A program made the translations under genes and the position numbers. The notes below the pieces were generated by a model. The model had not been told where the DNA came from and ran no database searches. It saw only the letters and a list, made by a program, of their open reading frames with translations. Positions 3,969 to 34,208 of a stretch of DNA of 54,404 bases are shown piece after piece. Origin of the DNA: Balneolaceae bacterium (GTDB taxonomy: Bacteria; Bacteroidota; Rhodothermia; Balneolales; Balneolaceae); NCBI GenBank assembly GCA_017643365.1, contig JAEPNO010000019.1, forward strand, positions 1 to 54,404, written 5' to 3'. The first letter of the stretch is position 1. Every line of letters starts with the position of its first letter.

Positions 3969-4808
3969 CTACGAAGGACTCCTCCCAAATTTACTCCAGT
4001 CCGGCTTTCTTTTTTCAAGGAAGGCATTCTTGCCTTCTTCGGCTTCGTCGGTCATGTAAGCGAGACGTGTTGCTTCTCCTGCAAAAACCTGTTGTCCAAC
4101 CAATCCGTCATCGATTAAGTTGAAGGCAAATTTGATCATTTTGATGGCAGTGGGGCTTTTTGCCAGTACTTCCTGCGCCCACTCAAAGGCCGTGTTTTCA
4201 AGTTCATCGTGCGGAACAACAGCATTTACCATCCCCATCTCAAAAGCTTCTTGAGCGTTGTAATTTCGACCAAGGAAAAAGATTTCACGAGCTCGTTTCT
4301 GTCCGGTTTGTCGTGCAAGTAAAGCCGATCCAAAACCTCCATCAAAACTGGCAACATCGGCATCGGTCTGCTTGAAGATAGCGTGTTCTTTGCTCGCTAA
4401 GGTCATATCGCAAGTTACGTGTAGCGAATGTCCGCCACCAACAGCCCAGCCCGGCACAACCGCAATCACAACCTTTGGCATGAATCGAATGAGACGTTGC
4501 ACTTCCAGAATATTGAGTCTCGGAATTCCATCATCTGCTTTATAACCCGTTTTAGATCGAACATTTTGATCCCCACCCGAACAAAAAGCCCAGCCACCGT
4601 CTTTAGACGAAGGACCTTCCCCCGAAATCAACACAACGCCGATTTCGTTGTCTTCTTTAGCATCGTGGAGAGCTTCGAATAATTCGAACACCGTTTTTGG
4701 GCGAAAAGCATTTCGAACTTCAGGCCGGTTAAAAGCGATGCGGGCAACACCATCGCACTTTTTGTAGGTAATGTCTTCGAATTCTTTAACAGTTTTCCAG
4801 TCGATCAT
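3969..4808 (-). CDS. menB: 1,4-dihydroxy-2-naphthoyl-CoA synthase MenB
   Basis: MenB is the crotonase-fold enzyme that closes the second ring of menaquinone, turning o-succinylbenzoyl-CoA into 1,4-dihydroxy-2-naphthoyl-CoA. The 279-residue protein shows the family oxyanion-hole regions: RNAFRPKTV near the N-terminus, the long insert SSKDGGWAFCSGGDQNVR, and VVPGWAVGGGHSLHVTCDMT. The C-terminal segment ends with the FLEKRKPDWSKF signature. Its start overlaps the menH stop as ATGA (4805-4808), indicating translational coupling. It uses TAG as its normal stop codon, which is relevant to the interrupted blh gene. Confidence 0.97.
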   Translation of the reverse strand: MIDWKTVKEFEDITYKKCDGVARIAFNRPEVRNAFRPKTVFELFEALHDAKEDNEIGVVLISGEGPSSKDGGWAFCSGGDQNVRSKTGYKADDGIPRLNILEVQRLIRFMPKVVIAVVPGWAVGGGHSLHVTCDMTLASKEHAIFKQTDADVASFDGGFGSALLARQTGQKRAREIFFLGRNYNAQEAFEMGMVNAVVPHDELENTAFEWAQEVLAKSPTAIKMIKFAFNLIDDGLVGQQVFAGEATRLAYMTDEAEEGKNAFLEKRKPDWSKFGRSPS

Positions 4809-5608
4809 AATTGATGGGTTTTGATAAACGGTTCTAAATGTTGGGCAATTTCCTTTGGCGATTCGATATGCACTCGATGACCTGTTTTGGGAATGATGCC
4901 TAGTTTTGCATCCGGAATTGCCTTACTCATGCTTTGGTTGATGCGAACAAATTTAGAATCATCGCCACCAGCTAAAAGCAGGGTAGGTGTGCTTAATTCT
5001 GATAAACGCTCCCGAACGCAAGGCATGGTTCCTGTGCCGAATGCAAGCAATGAGTTGGCAATCCAATATGGATTTTGAGCTTCTTGGATTTCCTTTTGTT
5101 GTTTCGATGAGCTGTTCGAAAACATCTCCATTTCTTGCCATTGCGTAAGAAAATCATCAAAATTGCCCATAATCTGATCAGCTCGGGAACCATCCAAAGC
5201 TTGGCGGGCTTGGCGTTCTGCTTCCACTTCAATCCCGAAAGTGCCGCTTTCTAAAATCAACCCGGAGAATAAATCGGGCCGTTGAAGCGACACTTGTAGA
5301 GCCAAGCGAGCACCCATGCTGTATCCATACAAAAATACTGGAGCAGACAATTGTTCCTGAACCAATTTTACGATGTCAGCAACTTGTTCTTTGGTCGAAA
5401 ACCGATAATGCAACTCGGCTCCTTCGGTTTGTCCGTGCCCGAGTAAATCGATGGTTACAGGATTACAAAAAGGGGAAAGGTGTTCAATCAGAGATTCAAA
5501 AAGATCTCCAGAACCCATAAAGCCATGAAGCAACACAAGTGTGGGGAGGTCATCGTTTTGTTGATGCTTTTCGAAAAAATATTCTATGCCTCTGACATTT
5601 AATTTCAT
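4805..5608 (-). CDS. menH: SHCHC synthase MenH (alpha/beta hydrolase)
   Basis: MenH removes pyruvate from SEPHCHC to give SHCHC, the step after MenD. The 267-residue alpha/beta hydrolase has the oxyanion HGFMGS motif, the nucleophile elbow GYSMGAR, and a late TGHRVH segment supplying the catalytic His. The start at 5608 is chosen because its ATG overlaps the menD TGA (ATGA, 5605-5608) and gives the usual length. A longer in-frame reading would run 23 codons back into menD without similarity. It is coupled on both sides within the men operon. Confidence 0.93.
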   Translation of the reverse strand: MKLNVRGIEYFFEKHQQNDDLPTLVLLHGFMGSGDLFESLIEHLSPFCNPVTIDLLGHGQTEGAELHYRFSTKEQVADIVKLVQEQLSAPVFLYGYSMGARLALQVSLQRPDLFSGLILESGTFGIEVEAERQARQALDGSRADQIMGNFDDFLTQWQEMEMFSNSSSKQQKEIQEAQNPYWIANSLLAFGTGTMPCVRERLSELSTPTLLLAGGDDSKFVRINQSMSKAIPDAKLGIIPKTGHRVHIESPKEIAQHLEPFIKTHQL

Positions 5609-14098: not shown

Positions 14099-14369
14099 TG
14101 CCGATTGTGATGATTTCGAATACTTTTCGTTGACCTGATGCGTAGTTGATGAAGCGAGTTCGGGTTGCTGATTTTACTGCTCTTTTAGTCTCGAATCACT
14201 TTCAACATACTCAAATATATGGTATTATCTGCGTCTATTTTAATAAAGTATCATCTAAAGCTCAGCCTATAGAACACAGCTACAATACGTTCACAACCTT
14301 GTAGAGATTATTTCGGCAAAACACTTTTTTAGGTTTACCGGTTGGTTCACAGTTATCCTATCGATTTCT

Positions 14370-17300
14370 GTGCTATTTGAAGTACGTGTGGGACATGCCC
14401 AAGAAAGAGATGTAGAAGTAGAAGCAGACTCTACACTTACTTCATCCACACCCGATACATTGGCGGCCGGTATCAGGATTTTTAAAGCTAACCGTATTGG
14501 TTTCGTAAGCACCTTACCTCAGCTTACTTCAGGAAAATTATATTCAGTTTCCGGCGGGAATGTAACCACCGCAGTTAGCTGGGATTCTGTTGATACATAC
14601 ACGATTCAAACGTCTGTTTTAGGCTATAAAAACAGAGTGCCAACCATTACCAATTTTGAGGGCTTCACACAATTAAAGAAGCAACAAGCAAATGAACGAA
14701 TAAGAGCGAAGTTGGTGCAGGAATCAAAAAATCAACAGCAGGAGAGTCGTGGGTTGCTGGATTTCAGTATCAATGTTCCGGGAGGTGAGAACTCAGCATT
14801 TTCTACCATATTTGGGAGTAACGAAGTGAACCTTCGCGTTAACGGTTCCGCCAATATGAATGTAGGTGCTTCGGTTCAAAAGTTGGATGACGGTACGCTT
14901 CCGCCGGATTTAAGAACTCGCGTTGATCCTACCTTCAATCAGAATCTGCAGTTAAATATTCAGGGAACCATTGGGGATAAACTCACCATTGCAACCGATT
15001 GGGATACCGAACGACAATTTGATTTCGAAAACCGATTGAGTATCCGATATGAAGGATATGAGGATGAAATTATCAAAAGCATTGAGATGGGGAACGTTTC
15101 GATGGCTACCGGAAACTCGTTGGTAAAAGGGGGGAGTTCACTTTTTGGGATTAAAGCCGTATCGGAACTTGGTCCGCTAAAGGTTACCACTGTAGTTTCG
15201 CAACAACGTGGTGAAAGCAATACACAAAGTATTTCGGGCGGTTCGCAGGAAAACAGCATCGATTTACGACCCGCTGATTATGAAGACGGGCGCCATTTTT
15301 TCCTCGATTTCTATAACCGACAAGAATTTGAAACGGCCTTAGCTAATCCTCAACAAATACTTCAACCGTATCAAATTACCGAAATTCAGGTGTACGTTCG
15401 CAAAGCCGAGCAAGTGCCGGGCATCAACACGGTAAGCGCTATTGCTTTGCTTGATCTTGGGGTGAATGACGAAGGAAATGATAGTTATGGATTCCCGGGC
15501 AACGATTTTGATCGCTTTCCGCAATCTACTTTAGAAGAACTTCGTCCTACCGACAGTAACGCCACCAACGAGGATTTTGGGGTAACTTCGCAAGAATATG
15601 TAGATGCCATCTTTGAGCAGTTGGTAGAAGGAGTGGATTACACCGTGAATTACTCACTGGGCTACATCAGCATGAAAAGTTTTATCAATTCGGGGGATGC
15701 CATTGCGGTTGCCTACACTTATAGTAATCCTCAGAATCCGGCCGAAGTAATTCAGGTTGGGGAATTGGATACCCAGAATTCGAGCAGAACGTATTTAAAG
15801 CTGCTTCGTCCGGGCGGGATGACAACCCAAGATCGTGCATGGCCACTAACCATGCGTAATATTTACTCGTTGGGTGTATCGGGAATTACACAAGATGGTT
15901 TTGAACTTGAAATAGCGGACACTAGAAACAATATCCCGGAAACGAATCTACCCGGAAGGGCAGAAACACTGCTTGCTGATTTGGGGCTTGATCGCCAGCA
16001 AACCGATGGTTCTATTGGCTCGGATAACCAGATCGATTTTTCGGGAGTTACGCTAGATGCGGGAACCGGCCGAATTATGTTTCCGTATCTGGAACCCTTT
16101 GGCGATCGAATTGCGGAAGTGCTACAAAACTCGACCAATGTGGCCGATTCGGTTGTGGAAGCACTTTCGTTTAAAGAGCTGTACGATCTAAAGCCTATCG
16201 ATGCGAAGCGTTCATCAAAAAATACATTTTATGCAATTTCAGGGAGCTCAAAAGGCGGAGTATCAGGTAGTTTTGTGCTACAGTTTGGATTGGTTGAGGG
16301 TTCCGTTACCGTTACAGCTAATGGAGTAACATTGGTGGAAGGCACGGATTATGAAGTAGATTATTCCTTTGGATCGCTAACCATTTTAAACGAACGATAT
16401 CTTGCACCGGGACAGGAAATCGAAATAGAATACGAAAACAATCAGTTTGCAGTAATTGGGCAAAAGAACTTTACAGGTGTACGTGCAGAATATACAGTTA
16501 GTGATGATATCAGCATCGGTAGCACCTTTTTTAAGCTGAAAGAACAACCGCTATCGGATAAAATCAGAATTGGGAATGAGCCTATTAACAACACCATTCT
16601 CGGTCTAGATGCCAAAGCAAATTTCGATACCCCATGGATCACTCGATTTATTGATAAAATTCCTTTGCTGCAAACCAGAGCAGAATCTAACATCAATTTT
16701 AGCGGTGAGTTTGCTCAATTACGTCCCGGTGTAGCACAAACAAACGCCGTTCAGGAAGCCATCGATCGCGGTGATTTATACAGTGATGAAGAGAATGGTC
16801 TGGTATTTATCGATGATTTTGAAGGAGCCGAATACACAATCAATTTTTCGAATCCAACCCGTTGGAATTTGGCGTCGGCACCGGCCGCTGTTCCGGGACT
16901 AGACGAAGACGCTGATTTCTTTAATGGAAACGCTCAAACTAGTATTCAAACACCGCAATTCAGAAAAGATCGGGCGGATTTAAGATCTCAGTTCTCGTGG
17001 TATGCCATCCCCAGAAATATTTCTGCAAGTCAGGCGCAAATTACTCCCGAAGTTGAAACTATTCGCATCAACGATATTTTTCAGGGTAGAGTGGTTAATC
17101 AACAAGAAACCGATCGAATCACCTCTTTGGATATATTCTACAATCCGAACGCTCGTGGCCAGTACAATTACAATTTCAATCTAAAAGATTTACTGGAAAT
17201 GCAACCGGAGCGAACCTGGGGAGGGATGACGGCAGTAATCCCAACTGGACAGGAAGATTTGGTGCAGAATAATATCGAGTTTCTGGAATTTTGGGTGCAG

Positions 17301-20300
17301 GCAATTTTACCTGAAGGACAGGAGCCAACTGGACAGGAAATTGATTACGAAGGAAAAATTTATATCGATTTGGGCACCATATCCGAAGATATTGTACCAA
17401 ATGCTCGACTCAATACCGAAGATGGTTTATCAACTACCATCAACAATTTAACGGAGGATGACCCCAGCGGGCAGCCTCGTTCGTACATTCCGCCAACGCC
17501 ACCGGTGCCACTTGGGCAATTTTCTACCGATCAGCGTGCACTTGAAGATGTTGGGTTAGATGGAGCTCCAAATCCGGGCACGTTTGGCGCAGAAGACAGA
17601 AATGAAGGAGTTTTATTCCAAGAATTTGTTGATCGTATGCGTGAACAATATGGTGCTTCTTCGCCGGAATACGAAGCCATTGCTACCGATCCATCGAACG
17701 ATGATTACGTTTATTATGGCGAAACTAAGGTGCAAGATTTACCACTAAAAGATCGATTCTATCGCCTGTTGGGCTATCACGATGGAAATACTCCCGAAAG
17801 CGGTGGCAGTGATAATAAAACGGCTATTACCTTAAAGCCCGATTCGGAAGGCTTAATCAGCTCTTCAAGTATTCTGCAAACCAATTCATATTATCAGTAC
17901 GAACTTGATTTCAATCCCGCTGATGTAAATGGGCTCGATGTTGGTACACCGGGCACGTATATCGTTGATAAAATTGAACGCGATCCTTATTACAAAACGT
18001 GGTATTTGGTACGAGTTCCATTGAAGGATTTCACGCGAAAATATGGCGAGATCGATAGTTTCCAGAACATTTCACACATGCGGGTGTGGATGAGTGGCTA
18101 CAAAAAACCTTTCACTCTTCGCTTTGCAACATTTGAGTTTGTGGGTAGCCAATGGAATAAAGTAGATAATTTAACCGAATCGCCGGCTACACTCGATGGC
18201 TTCGAAGTGTCGACCATCAACATCGAAGAAAATGCAAACAGAGTTCCTTTTCCATATCGCCAGCCTGATGGCTCAATTCGCGCGATAAATCGTGGTGCTC
18301 AAATTCAGACCGTACAAAACGAGCAATCGTTAGTACTTAGTGTTGATGCACTTGGTCCGGGTGAAATTCACATGGTGAAGAAAGTGTATACCGGAAATCT
18401 GAATCTCTTGAATTACTCAAACATGCGGATGTTTGTGCATGGTGAGGGTTTTGATGATCGGGGCGATGCAGAGCTTGTAATTCGAATGGGTAATGATCTT
18501 GAGAATAACTTCTATGAATATCGCCAACCGGTAACACCTTCCGTAGAACGTGATTTTAAATACGATATAAATGATCAAGGCGGATTAGCCGCTGACGCCG
18601 AAGATATCTGGCTATACGATGAAAACAGCATGAATATCATCATTTCGGCACTCAACGTGTTGAAGCAGAACCGAAATTCTGTAAACTTTGATCCTTCGCA
18701 GTTGTTCGAACAAAAAGGACTGTTAGGCGAAGAGGGAGTTGAAGGCGCCGTTCTGGCGATCAAAGGAAATCCATCGCTGGATAAAGTTTCTGAAATCGGT
18801 TTGGGGATTCGTAACCCGTACGATCCATCGGATGTGAACACGCCAGGCGTGGCCAGCTTAAATGCTCAGTTCTGGTTAAACGAGCTTCGTGTATCCGGCT
18901 TTGATAACGAAAAAGGTTGGGCAGCAAACGCCAAATCGAGCGTGAAATTAGCTGATTTTGCAACTCTAAACGCCAATATGACTCGACGTACGAATGGTTT
19001 TGGCGGATTGGAATCGCAATTCGAAAGCAGAAGTGTTTCAGAACAATTCGGGTATAATCTAAGCTCAACCATCAACCTGCATAAACTAGTGCCCGATCGT
19101 TTTGGTTGGAATTTCCCGGTTACCATTTCTACCGCGCGTGATACCCAAACACCTAAATTTTTGCCGGACCAAGGGGATATTCGTCTCACGGATTTTAAAG
19201 ACGCGATAAACTCGAACGAAAATCTATCCTCCGAACAAAAGCAGGATAGTATCAGCACCAGAATCGAGGATATTCAAACCGTTAACGAGCGATTTTCCAT
19301 CAACTTTTCTGATATCTCAAAGAGGAATTCTAAAAGCGAACTGGCAAAGTACACCATCGATAACATGCGGTTGAGTTATGTGTACAACACCGGAAGTGCA
19401 CAAAATCCTCAGTTGCAGTTTCAAAACAAATGGGATTATCAGGCTTCGGTATCGTACAATTTGTCGCTGCGTCGGGTTAAACTATTTACGCCCTTTGGCT
19501 TTACCCGAAATATACCTTTGGTTAAAGTGTTATCCGGTTTTAGGATGGGATATCTGCCAAGTTCTCTCACTTTTTCGTCGGGATTAACCCGTAATTACAG
19601 CGAATCTCGACGACGAAGTTTATCCGATCCAACGGCCATTCAGCCACTTCAGCAGTCGCACAATTTTACGCAACGTAATAACTTCGGCTTGAATTATAAT
19701 CTGACTCCGTCGATACCGATTTCATTCCGAACATCAACGAATTTTGATTTGGCAAATGCGGGCATCGAAAACCGAAATGCAACCGGCGCCGATAGCCTAG
19801 CTTTCGACGTAAAACCTACTTTTGATGTACTTCAAGGCATCGTTTCTGATACGCTTACGGCTCGAAGATCAACCTATCAGGAAACCTACTCGGCCAGTTG
19901 GCGCCCAAACCTGAATCAAATTAAAGCAATTAATTGGCTTACTTATTCCTTGAGTTACGGCGGTGGATTTCAATGGAATAATAGTCCACGAGGTTCAAAT
20001 TTAGGAGCTTCAGTGTCCAATAATTTCCAAATTGATAATTCTATAAAGATAGATGTTGAAGACATACTAGATCGGATTGGATTTATCAGCAAGATGAAGG
20101 AATCGGACGGAGAAGAAACGAAAGAAAGAAAGGCTAATAAAGACGCCCGAAGTAGAGAAGCTGAGCAAGATTTAGCAGACAGTTTACGAACACCGCGTCC
20201 GGCTCCGGATTTAGTAAGAGATTTTAAATATATAGGCCGAAAGGTGTTTTTGGCGGCATTTAGTATGAAAGATCTCTCAGGAAGTTATAAACGAACGAAG

Positions 20301-21605
20301 TCCGGAAGTCAGCCCGGTTATCAAGGTCAATCGCAGATTTTTTACGCATTTAATACTCCAGGCAGCAATAACTACTCACCACCGTTTGCATATCGAACGG
20401 GCTTTAAAGACCGTATTTCGCAAGAACAGCTGATCGATAATTTGGATGGAAATACCAATGTTCAACTTCCTGCAAATAACAGCATTAACGATACCTTTAC
20501 TGCAAAAACGCGGATCAATCTGTTTCCAAACTTTACCATCGATTTGGATTGGAGCGCTGCAATCAACAACCGAAGCACTACTACAATTACCGTTACGCCG
20601 GAGGGTGAATATTCGTCGGTAGTGAGTGAGTCGGGCGGGTATAATTCTTCAGTTTGGGCCTTCGGTGATGGATATGAAAAGTTATTCAGAAATCAGCTTG
20701 AAACCGCCTACGCCGATATTAATGCAGGCAGTGATGTGATCGCAGATTCCCTCGGTAACAACGATGGTCGGTTTGTTCTAAACCGAAATACCTTGGAAGA
20801 GGATTTCCGGGATGCATATTTAGGCACCAATGTGAATGGATTGGGCAGTAAAGGATTATTTGTATTCCCTCGACCGGGTTGGCGAATAAACTGGAACAGA
20901 TTTCAAGAATATCTACCGTTTATTGGTCAGTTTTTATCCAATGCTACACTTTCACATTCCTATCGAGGGACGTACAAAGTTGATTGGACGTTAAATACCT
21001 TAACGGGCGAGCAATCGGCGCAATCGTTGGGCAGCACCTTTGATATTATTGATAACAGGCGTCGATTTGAACCAACCACTCTGCGAGCTGAACGAAGATT
21101 TTCTCCTTTGGTGAAACTGAGCATGACGTGGGAATCGAATTTGAGAACTGAGTTTGGCTACGATCGAAGTACTATTTCAACCTTTGCCATATCAAGTAAG
21201 CGGGCGACCGAAACTTTATCGCAGGGGATCGATTTCTCGATGAATTACACGTTCAGAAATGTGAAAATGAAGATGTTTCCGAAGATAAAGAACAACATCG
21301 ACTTGAGTTTGCGTGGCAGCTACAAAAACGACACCGAGTTGAGTTACAAGTTGGACAGCGATATTGGGAATGCTTTGATTCCGAATGCACCAACGGTACT
21401 ACCGGTTGAAGATGCCGAAATACTTAGTAGTAGAGAGACCGGTCAAAAAAGAATTAACGGTACGTTTTCGGTGGGATATAAAATATCGGCTTCGATTTCA
21501 TCCAATTTCGAATACACGTACAGCCGCATCCAATCCAATAATATTCCAACCCGTACCAATCACGATATACGCTTTAATGTGCGTATCGCTATTTCATCAA
21601 GGTAG
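14370..21605 (+). CDS. sprA: SprA/Sov, giant outer-membrane translocon of the type IX secretion system
   Basis: SprA forms the very large outer-membrane barrel through which T9SS cargo leaves the cell. At about 2,411 residues the length matches known SprA proteins (about 2,400). Repeated segments such as LNLRVNGSANMNVGASVQ, GTIGDKLTIATDWDTERQFDFENR and FEGAEYTINFSNPTRWNL are characteristic. The C-terminus ends in amphipathic strands. The GTG at 14370 is the only standard start that keeps the frame, but codons upstream to 14259 remain open and encode a hydrophobic signal-like stretch (FTVILSISVLF) before GHAQ, so the true start probably lies upstream at a non-standard codon. The 3' end overlaps convergent lnt by 17 bp. 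Confidence 0.95.
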   Translation: MLFEVRVGHAQERDVEVEADSTLTSSTPDTLAAGIRIFKANRIGFVSTLPQLTSGKLYSVSGGNVTTAVSWDSVDTYTIQTSVLGYKNRVPTITNFEGFTQLKKQQANERIRAKLVQESKNQQQESRGLLDFSINVPGGENSAFSTIFGSNEVNLRVNGSANMNVGASVQKLDDGTLPPDLRTRVDPTFNQNLQLNIQGTIGDKLTIATDWDTERQFDFENRLSIRYEGYEDEIIKSIEMGNVSMATGNSLVKGGSSLFGIKAVSELGPLKVTTVVSQQRGESNTQSISGGSQENSIDLRPADYEDGRHFFLDFYNRQEFETALANPQQILQPYQITEIQVYVRKAEQVPGINTVSAIALLDLGVNDEGNDSYGFPGNDFDRFPQSTLEELRPTDSNATNEDFGVTSQEYVDAIFEQLVEGVDYTVNYSLGYISMKSFINSGDAIAVAYTYSNPQNPAEVIQVGELDTQNSSRTYLKLLRPGGMTTQDRAWPLTMRNIYSLGVSGITQDGFELEIADTRNNIPETNLPGRAETLLADLGLDRQQTDGSIGSDNQIDFSGVTLDAGTGRIMFPYLEPFGDRIAEVLQNSTNVADSVVEALSFKELYDLKPIDAKRSSKNTFYAISGSSKGGVSGSFVLQFGLVEGSVTVTANGVTLVEGTDYEVDYSFGSLTILNERYLAPGQEIEIEYENNQFAVIGQKNFTGVRAEYTVSDDISIGSTFFKLKEQPLSDKIRIGNEPINNTILGLDAKANFDTPWITRFIDKIPLLQTRAESNINFSGEFAQLRPGVAQTNAVQEAIDRGDLYSDEENGLVFIDDFEGAEYTINFSNPTRWNLASAPAAVPGLDEDADFFNGNAQTSIQTPQFRKDRADLRSQFSWYAIPRNISASQAQITPEVETIRINDIFQGRVVNQQETDRITSLDIFYNPNARGQYNYNFNLKDLLEMQPERTWGGMTAVIPTGQEDLVQNNIEFLEFWVQAILPEGQEPTGQEIDYEGKIYIDLGTISEDIVPNARLNTEDGLSTTINNLTEDDPSGQPRSYIPPTPPVPLGQFSTDQRALEDVGLDGAPNPGTFGAEDRNEGVLFQEFVDRMREQYGASSPEYEAIATDPSNDDYVYYGETKVQDLPLKDRFYRLLGYHDGNTPESGGSDNKTAITLKPDSEGLISSSSILQTNSYYQYELDFNPADVNGLDVGTPGTYIVDKIERDPYYKTWYLVRVPLKDFTRKYGEIDSFQNISHMRVWMSGYKKPFTLRFATFEFVGSQWNKVDNLTESPATLDGFEVSTINIEENANRVPFPYRQPDGSIRAINRGAQIQTVQNEQSLVLSVDALGPGEIHMVKKVYTGNLNLLNYSNMRMFVHGEGFDDRGDAELVIRMGNDLENNFYEYRQPVTPSVERDFKYDINDQGGLAADAEDIWLYDENSMNIIISALNVLKQNRNSVNFDPSQLFEQKGLLGEEGVEGAVLAIKGNPSLDKVSEIGLGIRNPYDPSDVNTPGVASLNAQFWLNELRVSGFDNEKGWAANAKSSVKLADFATLNANMTRRTNGFGGLESQFESRSVSEQFGYNLSSTINLHKLVPDRFGWNFPVTISTARDTQTPKFLPDQGDIRLTDFKDAINSNENLSSEQKQDSISTRIEDIQTVNERFSINFSDISKRNSKSELAKYTIDNMRLSYVYNTGSAQNPQLQFQNKWDYQASVSYNLSLRRVKLFTPFGFTRNIPLVKVLSGFRMGYLPSSLTFSSGLTRNYSESRRRSLSDPTAIQPLQQSHNFTQRNNFGLNYNLTPSIPISFRTSTNFDLANAGIENRNATGADSLAFDVKPTFDVLQGIVSDTLTARRSTYQETYSASWRPNLNQIKAINWLTYSLSYGGGFQWNNSPRGSNLGASVSNNFQIDNSIKIDVEDILDRIGFISKMKESDGEETKERKANKDARSREAEQDLADSLRTPRPAPDLVRDFKYIGRKVFLAAFSMKDLSGSYKRTKSGSQPGYQGQSQIFYAFNTPGSNNYSPPFAYRTGFKDRISQEQLIDNLDGNTNVQLPANNSINDTFTAKTRINLFPNFTIDLDWSAAINNRSTTTITVTPEGEYSSVVSESGGYNSSVWAFGDGYEKLFRNQLETAYADINAGSDVIADSLGNNDGRFVLNRNTLEEDFRDAYLGTNVNGLGSKGLFVFPRPGWRINWNRFQEYLPFIGQFLSNATLSHSYRGTYKVDWTLNTLTGEQSAQSLGSTFDIIDNRRRFEPTTLRAERRFSPLVKLSMTWESNLRTEFGYDRSTISTFAISSKRATETLSQGIDFSMNYTFRNVKMKMFPKIKNNIDLSLRGSYKNDTELSYKLDSDIGNALIPNAPTVLPVEDAEILSSRETGQKRINGTFSVGYKISASISSNFEYTYSRIQSNNIPTRTNHDIRFNVRIAISSR

Positions 21606-32485: not shown

Positions 32486-33196
32486 ATGAATTTACAATTG
32501 CTATTCGCTTCACAAATTGAAGCTGGAGATGTAGTTGGGTTTACCTTCTTCATCGGCACCATGGCTATGCTGGCAGCGACCGTATTCTTTTTTGCGGAGC
32601 GTCAAAATGTACCGGAAAAGTGGAGATTATCACTTACTGTTTCCGGCCTTATAACTGGTATTGCTGCATTGCATTATTACTATATGCGCGATTACTACTT
32701 AACACTGGGTTCTAGCCCAACTGAATTTCGATACATTGACTGGGTATTAACCGTACCATTAATGTGTGTGGAGTTTTATTTGTTAACTCGTCCATATGGC
32801 GCAAAAGGAAAAACACTCTTCGCTTTAATAGTGGCATCGGTAGGGATGCTGGTTACCGGTTATATTGGTGAAGCGATTCAACCAGAATCGACCATACTAT
32901 GGGGAACCATTTCTACAGTATTCTACCTTTATATCGTGTATGAAGTATTTGCAGGAAGTATTGCTAAACTTGCGAAAGGATCGAATAATCCTGCACTAAA
33001 TCAGGCGATGTTTCTACTAAAAATCTTTATCACTTTAGGCTGGTCGGTATATCCAATTGGGTATATGACGATGGAAGGTAATTTGCTTGCCGGACTCGGT
33101 AACATAGATGTGATATATAATATAGCAGATGCGATCAACAAGATCGGTTTTGGATTAGTTATCTACTATGTTGCAACGTCTGAGAGTTCAAAATAG
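32486..33196 (+). CDS. Light-driven proton-pumping rhodopsin (proteorhodopsin/xanthorhodopsin type)
   Basis: A seven-helix retinal protein of 236 residues that pumps protons outward in light. Lys219 in helix G (NIADAINKIGFG) is the retinal Schiff-base lysine. Helix C reads RYIDWVLTVPLMCVEF, giving the DTE triad (Asp85 acceptor, Thr89, Glu96 donor) of proton pumps, not the NDQ of sodium pumps. Met93 at the spectral-tuning site suggests green absorption. His63 in helix B matches the conserved counter-ion partner. Gly140 (in ILWGTIST) occupies the place of bacteriorhodopsin Trp138, the opening used by carotenoid-antenna rhodopsins. A terminator follows. The convergent blh would supply retinal but is interrupted. 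Confidence 0.96.
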   Translation: MNLQLLFASQIEAGDVVGFTFFIGTMAMLAATVFFFAERQNVPEKWRLSLTVSGLITGIAALHYYYMRDYYLTLGSSPTEFRYIDWVLTVPLMCVEFYLLTRPYGAKGKTLFALIVASVGMLVTGYIGEAIQPESTILWGTISTVFYLYIVYEVFAGSIAKLAKGSNNPALNQAMFLLKIFITLGWSVYPIGYMTMEGNLLAGLGNIDVIYNIADAINKIGFGLVIYYVATSESSK

Positions 33197-33221
33197 ACGA
33201 AAAGAAAGCTAAACAATATAG

Positions 33222-33254
33222 AAGGCAATGGGTTAACACCTGTTGCCTTTTTTT
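33222..33254 (+). terminator. Rho-independent terminator of the rhodopsin gene
   Basis: AAGGCAA (33222-33228) pairs with TTGCCTT (33243-33249), with an inner GGT/ACC pair in the loop and a seven-T run at 33248-33254. It ends the monocistronic rhodopsin transcript before the convergent blh. Confidence 0.88.
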
Positions 33255-33281
33255 ATGGTTTTAGTTCGGATTACCAAAAAA

Positions 33282-34208
33282 TTACTTTTTATCCCACCAT
33301 GAATAAAGCTTCTCCACAACTAACATATGTGGCAAAGTGAGTACCGCAATAACTACAAATAATAGAGAAACAAGTAGTTCCTCATTCCCATAGGCATTAA
33401 GTAGATTGTAAACGAATAGAAGTCCTAGATAAGAAAGTAAGCTAAACACAAAGGATTCTTTAAAAAACCATCCAAAACTAACGGCATGTTCTTTTGATCG
33501 AAGATACCGCAACATCACTAAGGCGTGATTAAAAGAATGCCATAAACCAAAATAAATGGCAAAAGCCCAAACTAGATTACTATAAACAAAAAGCAGTGGT
33601 ACGATGAGTGCATCCACAAAAAATGTGAGTTTCTAGGTGATTTTTGAAGGATTTGTAATCAAAACGATGAGATAAACGGCGGGATAGATTCCTGCAATAA
33701 TCCACTTTAAAACGGTGGGATCGTACGATTGAGATATGATATCATAAATTGAAATATCGGTTATAGCCGCAATTACTGCCGAAGAGTAGGCTAAATCTCC
33801 AAAAACAATGAGCCCGACAACAGTAATTCCTCTACTAATATGAATCGCCCATTTGGACCAACCACTTATTGAAAATCGCTCTGCATCAGCTTGCCCAAAG
33901 TGATACAAAGTGATGAGTAGAAAAAACATGAAACTGAAAAATGGGAAGAAGATCCAAAGCAATGCATACAACGCAATTGCTGATAAATACCATCCGTAAA
34001 ACCATTTGTTTAACGAATATGGATTCCAGCCTTCCAGGTTTCCATCAATATGATGATCCAGAGCGCCGTGCGGCATCCCGATGAATAAAATTACAAGTGC
34101 CAGAATTATATAGCGCGAACTTTCGGCAAATTGTGGGGCTAATTGATTAAGCAAAATAACAGCTACTGCTACAGCTGTTTGTATCCAAATACGCTTTGGT
34201 ATGCTCAT
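33282..34208 (-). pseudogene. blh: Brp/Blh-family beta-carotene 15,15'-dioxygenase interrupted by one in-frame TAG
   Basis: Blh cleaves beta-carotene into two retinals, the chromophore of the neighbouring rhodopsin. Read through, the gene encodes 308 positions with the whole family pattern: GMPHGALDHH (His47), TLYHFGQAD (His103), LWHSFNHALVMLRYLR (His224, His228) and LPHMLVVEKLY at the end, all in a multi-helix membrane protein. A single TAG at 33633-33635 (codon 192) splits it into 191 residues and a 111-residue tail that could restart at GTG 33617. The reading frame is unchanged, so this is a nonsense codon, not a frameshift. The four histidines match the iron ligands known in marine Blh, and two lie after the stop. 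A dead gene, readthrough, split subunits or a sequencing error are all possible. Confidence 0.88.

Follow-up and report, generated by a model that had tools for sequence, protein, structure and literature searches.

The single blh gene of the Balneolaceae bacterium studied here is interrupted by one in-frame TAG, and we consider it likely, with a probability of roughly four in five, that this is either a very recent nonsense mutation in an ordinary proteorhodopsin/blh pair or a wrong base in the published sequence. A preliminary description of the same DNA had offered three readings of the lesion, namely a recent event, readthrough or an error. This view holds, and the data favour 'recent or error', because the part of the gene behind the stop is undecayed, the congeners carry intact copies, the break is not shared by any relative compared and TAG is used as an ordinary stop codon. 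All coordinates refer to the window, i.e., the whole stretch of 54,404 nucleotides that was analysed.

The blh frame resides on the minus strand (33282-34208) and comprises 308 positions when the TAG at 33633-33635, codon 192, is read through; it is open otherwise. As published, blh is not a single uninterrupted coding frame owing to this triplet. The 5' part (33633-34208, minus strand, 191 codons plus TAG) contains the motifs G.PHG..DH and YHFGQAD and the histidines H47 and H103, and matches PF15461 at profile positions 2-150 (E 7.5e-24). The 3' part (33282-33632, minus strand) contains the WHSFNH motif, H224, H228 and the C-terminal LTLPHM, ends in TAA and matches PF15461 at positions 164-267 (E 6.2e-20). 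Its first in-frame start codon is a GTG at 33617, 15 nucleotides past the TAG, which opens a reading frame of 111 amino acids (33282-33617, minus strand) in the same frame as the upstream one of 191. Each half thus matches the family profile on its own, which bears out the earlier statement that both keep family similarity. In the profile search, one PF15461 match spanned positions 2-267 with a single TAG inside, which is more than chance would provide, and it was the only match to this family in the whole genome (3.77 Mb, 51 contigs). With TIGR03753, the read-through product scored 161 bits and so passed the cut-off of 95, which neither half alone attains. H47, H103, H224 and H228 are all present and are invariant in 32 relatives from the family, two of them on each side of the TAG; the preliminary description names these four, after the literature, as the iron ligands, and our own analysis addressed their invariance. 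Its central claim, that reading across the TAG restores a Brp/Blh protein of 308 positions with unchanged frame and all four histidines in place, is fully confirmed by the reading frames and the invariant columns. On the strength of the full-length profile match, the read-through product is assigned as a Brp/Blh beta-carotene 15,15'-dioxygenase with predicted retinal-forming activity. A search of solved structures by sequence with Blh gave no match, and a model calculated with AlphaFold2 from a two-sequence alignment was set aside (mean pLDDT of 42). A literature search for interrupted or pseudogene blh returned nothing relevant.

The gene is intact in the two congeners, whose proteins are 77.5% and 62.5% identical to the read-through product and whose codons at the position of the stop are CAT (His) and AAC (Asn). 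Beyond these, blh was found in 45 of 92 genomes of the family, 99 of 245 genomes of the class and 62 of 392 genomes of a phylum sample. When the 99 blh-bearing class genomes and 21 others above the cut-off from the phylum sample were compared (about 120 in total), the copy described here was the only one above the cut-off with an internal stop. Neither the same break nor an ancient split of the gene occurred in any relative from the family, the class or the phylum sample, and viral contigs yielded neither a relative nor a copy of the TAG site. Above the cut-off, the internal stop is limited to this copy, and the break is therefore neither ancient nor shared; separate ancient halves in relatives did not turn up. 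Another copy among the relatives, that of G064, is truncated where its contig ends. A blh-like fragment in a distant member of the Bacteroidota (G418:C2:252249-252587; 24.9 bits, below the threshold) contains a TGA and a TAG and is possibly a decayed copy.

The part of blh behind the stop bears no trace of decay. The 30 columns that do not vary among the 32 family relatives are all unchanged here, before as well as after the TAG, and the number of lineage-unique residues after the stop is the same here as in the sister species (6 versus 6). With a codon model of three species, the log-likelihood falls by 1.5, 3.0 and 7.4 units when 1%, 2% and 5% of the lineage, respectively, are modelled as neutral for the post-stop part; synonymous sites are near saturation, which makes this bound and all absolute values rough, but the bound agrees with the residue counts. 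Free-branch codon models ran into their bounds because of the saturated synonymous sites, and we relied on the neutral-drift profile and on plain residue counts instead. The data speak against neutral drift of the post-stop part for longer than 1-2% of the lineage. The lesion is absent from close relatives and selection is not yet relaxed, as expected of a recent nonsense pseudogene. Nevertheless, conservation behind the stop fits a recent mutation, an error and a 3' half that is still translated alike and does not choose among them.

To a base error in sequencing or assembly, in which case the living strain would possess an intact blh, we tentatively allot a minor share of the probability stated above. 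The complete lack of decay past the stop, the intact gene in relatives, the strong co-occurrence of rhodopsin and blh and the fact that no other interrupted genes were seen in the window are all in line with it. On the other hand, single-base substitution errors are rare in well-covered assemblies, and the present assembly is 99.81% complete with 0.02% contamination. Same-frame neighbouring pairs of open reading frames in the window were also considered as further interruptions; those with family matches proved to be distinct genes (GrpE/DnaJ, menB/next gene, PALP/DUF3467 and helicase/RimK-like).

Could the TAG be decoded as an amino acid? It terminates nine of the 39 long non-overlapping open reading frames in the window, the blh fragment being one of the nine. 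Among the others is menB (3969-4922, minus strand), where the ATG of the next gene follows directly after the TAG. The gene for an SprA-type secretion/motility protein of 2448 amino acids (14259-21605) ends in TAG as well. The gene for release factor RF1, prfA, is intact (521 bits), such that TAG is neither avoided as a stop nor deprived of its release factor. No tRNA with a CUA anticodon was present among the 32 tRNA genes found, in a set for which 150 of 254 candidates were scored and which is short of three expected members (Ile-GAU, Ala-UGC and Pro-UGG). With TAG as a normal stop, RF1 intact and no CUA tRNA among the 32 found, recoding is without support: general recoding of amber codons, for which we found no supporting point and to which we assign a vanishingly small probability, is rejected, and a dedicated suppressor tRNA is unlikely. 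The earlier argument from the normal TAG ends of menB and the rhodopsin gene agrees with these data.

Readthrough of the amber codon by near-cognate tRNAs such as tRNA-Gln (UUG) or tRNA-Tyr (GUA) is a different matter, as it could yield a low level of full-length Blh sufficient for a catalytic supply of retinal. Bacterial genes with a conserved in-frame stop and low dN/dS have been described, and readthrough was proposed for them (PMC7918605); in the present case the stop is placed in a loop that tolerates different residues and is followed by a conserved downstream half. However, a recent lesion equally predicts conservation of the 3' half, the TAG is common to no relative, no suppressor tRNA was among the 32 tRNAs found, RF1 is intact and TAG is used normally. 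The base following the stop is an A, and no recoding element was identified at the site. We consider such readthrough unlikely.

Codon 192 is among the most variable positions of Blh, ranking 11th of 308 by single-column entropy and 14th to 19th after smoothing; the chance that a random position is equally variable is about 1/20. The hydropathy minimum is at position 193, between hydrophobic stretches at 170-181 and 199-216. The break thus falls into a hydrophilic minimum between hydrophobic segments and cuts no membrane segment. This location, together with the conservation of both fragments, would suit a scheme in which translation restarts at GTG 33617 and membrane fragments of 191 and 111 residues assemble into an active dioxygenase. 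Such a two-piece enzyme is very improbable, given that the relatives are unsplit, that the GTG is not preceded by a Shine-Dalgarno-like sequence (although neither is the blh ATG) and that the break probably arose too recently for a two-gene arrangement to have evolved from it. A two-piece enzyme and amber suppression had both been put forward in the preliminary description; neither gained support. Apart from the variable-loop position, nothing hints at tolerated readthrough or a two-piece Blh, and we do not weigh this position heavily. We likewise hold it to be quite unlikely that the TAG has become fixed in the species, with Blh arising through leaky readthrough of the amber codon or in two membrane fragments via a restart at GTG 33617, giving a low and possibly regulated supply of retinal.

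The rhodopsin gene (32486-33196, plus strand, 236 amino acids, ending in TAG) is convergent with blh, matches PF01036 with 151 bits and is the sole rhodopsin gene in the genome. According to the alignment, the D..T..E triad (DWVLTVPLMCVE) and the Schiff-base lysine (DAINK) are present. A hairpin resembling an intrinsic terminator, with a 14-pair stem and a T run, is situated 3' of the rhodopsin gene between the two genes (33220-33251, plus strand); with convergent genes and a terminator between them, the stop in blh should not lower rhodopsin expression by polarity. The genes for phytoene synthase (crtB) and lycopene cyclase (crtY) are intact, and no RPE65-type oxygenase was found in the genome as another route to retinal. 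Within the family, 44 genomes encode rhodopsin together with blh, three rhodopsin alone and one blh alone. Rhodopsin is 96.2% identical to the protein of the sister species compared with 77.5% for Blh, and most of its few changes fall on the present lineage. All three members of the genus retain the convergent pair (32486-34208 in the window, 4001-6152 in L034 and 452-2157 in L002), but the flanking genes differ: in the window these are folE/cysS and an alpha/beta hydrolase, in L034 a large frame of 985 amino acids and an inserted one of 122 amino acids, and in L002 an ABC-transporter-like gene. The pair may therefore move as a unit.

If the nonsense mutation is real, ribosomes would be expected to stop at codon 192 and to release a fragment of 191 residues lacking half of the conserved histidines. 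The sequenced strain would then make little or no retinal via Blh, and its rhodopsin would stay largely an apoprotein unless retinal is obtained externally or traces result from leaky readthrough. Three observations count against a loss of blh: rhodopsin and blh almost always occur together in the family, such that losing the latter while keeping the former is unusual; the TAG is at one of the most variable, loop-like sites, where the protein would best tolerate being split or taking up a wrong residue; and no other gene in the window was seen to be interrupted. Yet tens of pseudogenes are common in reference genomes of other bacteria (PMC9239080), and one nonsense allele is thus expected background. 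A real base would mean a proton-pump gene whose dedicated pigment enzyme is switched off, and would make this strain a natural knockout with which a possible uptake of retinal by rhodopsin bacteria from their neighbours could be studied. Automatic annotation would report two fragments or a pseudogene at blh, and until the base has been checked, this genome is best not quoted as that of a working light-driven proton-pumping strain.

Compared with known systems, the gene resembles the Brp/Blh dioxygenases (PF15461/TIGR03753) in its full-length match upon read-through and in keeping all invariant residues, and differs by the TAG at codon 192. Rhodoluna lacicola and Aurantimicrobium minutum both possess rhodopsin but no blh; the former pumps only if retinal is supplied, while the latter produces it through an unknown pathway (PMC7734400). 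The organism studied here is similar to both in that rhodopsin is intact and no intact known gene for retinal formation was found, but differs from them because its blh is present, nearly intact, just interrupted and whole in relatives. The gene also resembles recent nonsense-mutation pseudogenes of bacteria: a single stop, an otherwise open frame, no decay and absence from relatives, with no difference in the features that could be measured.
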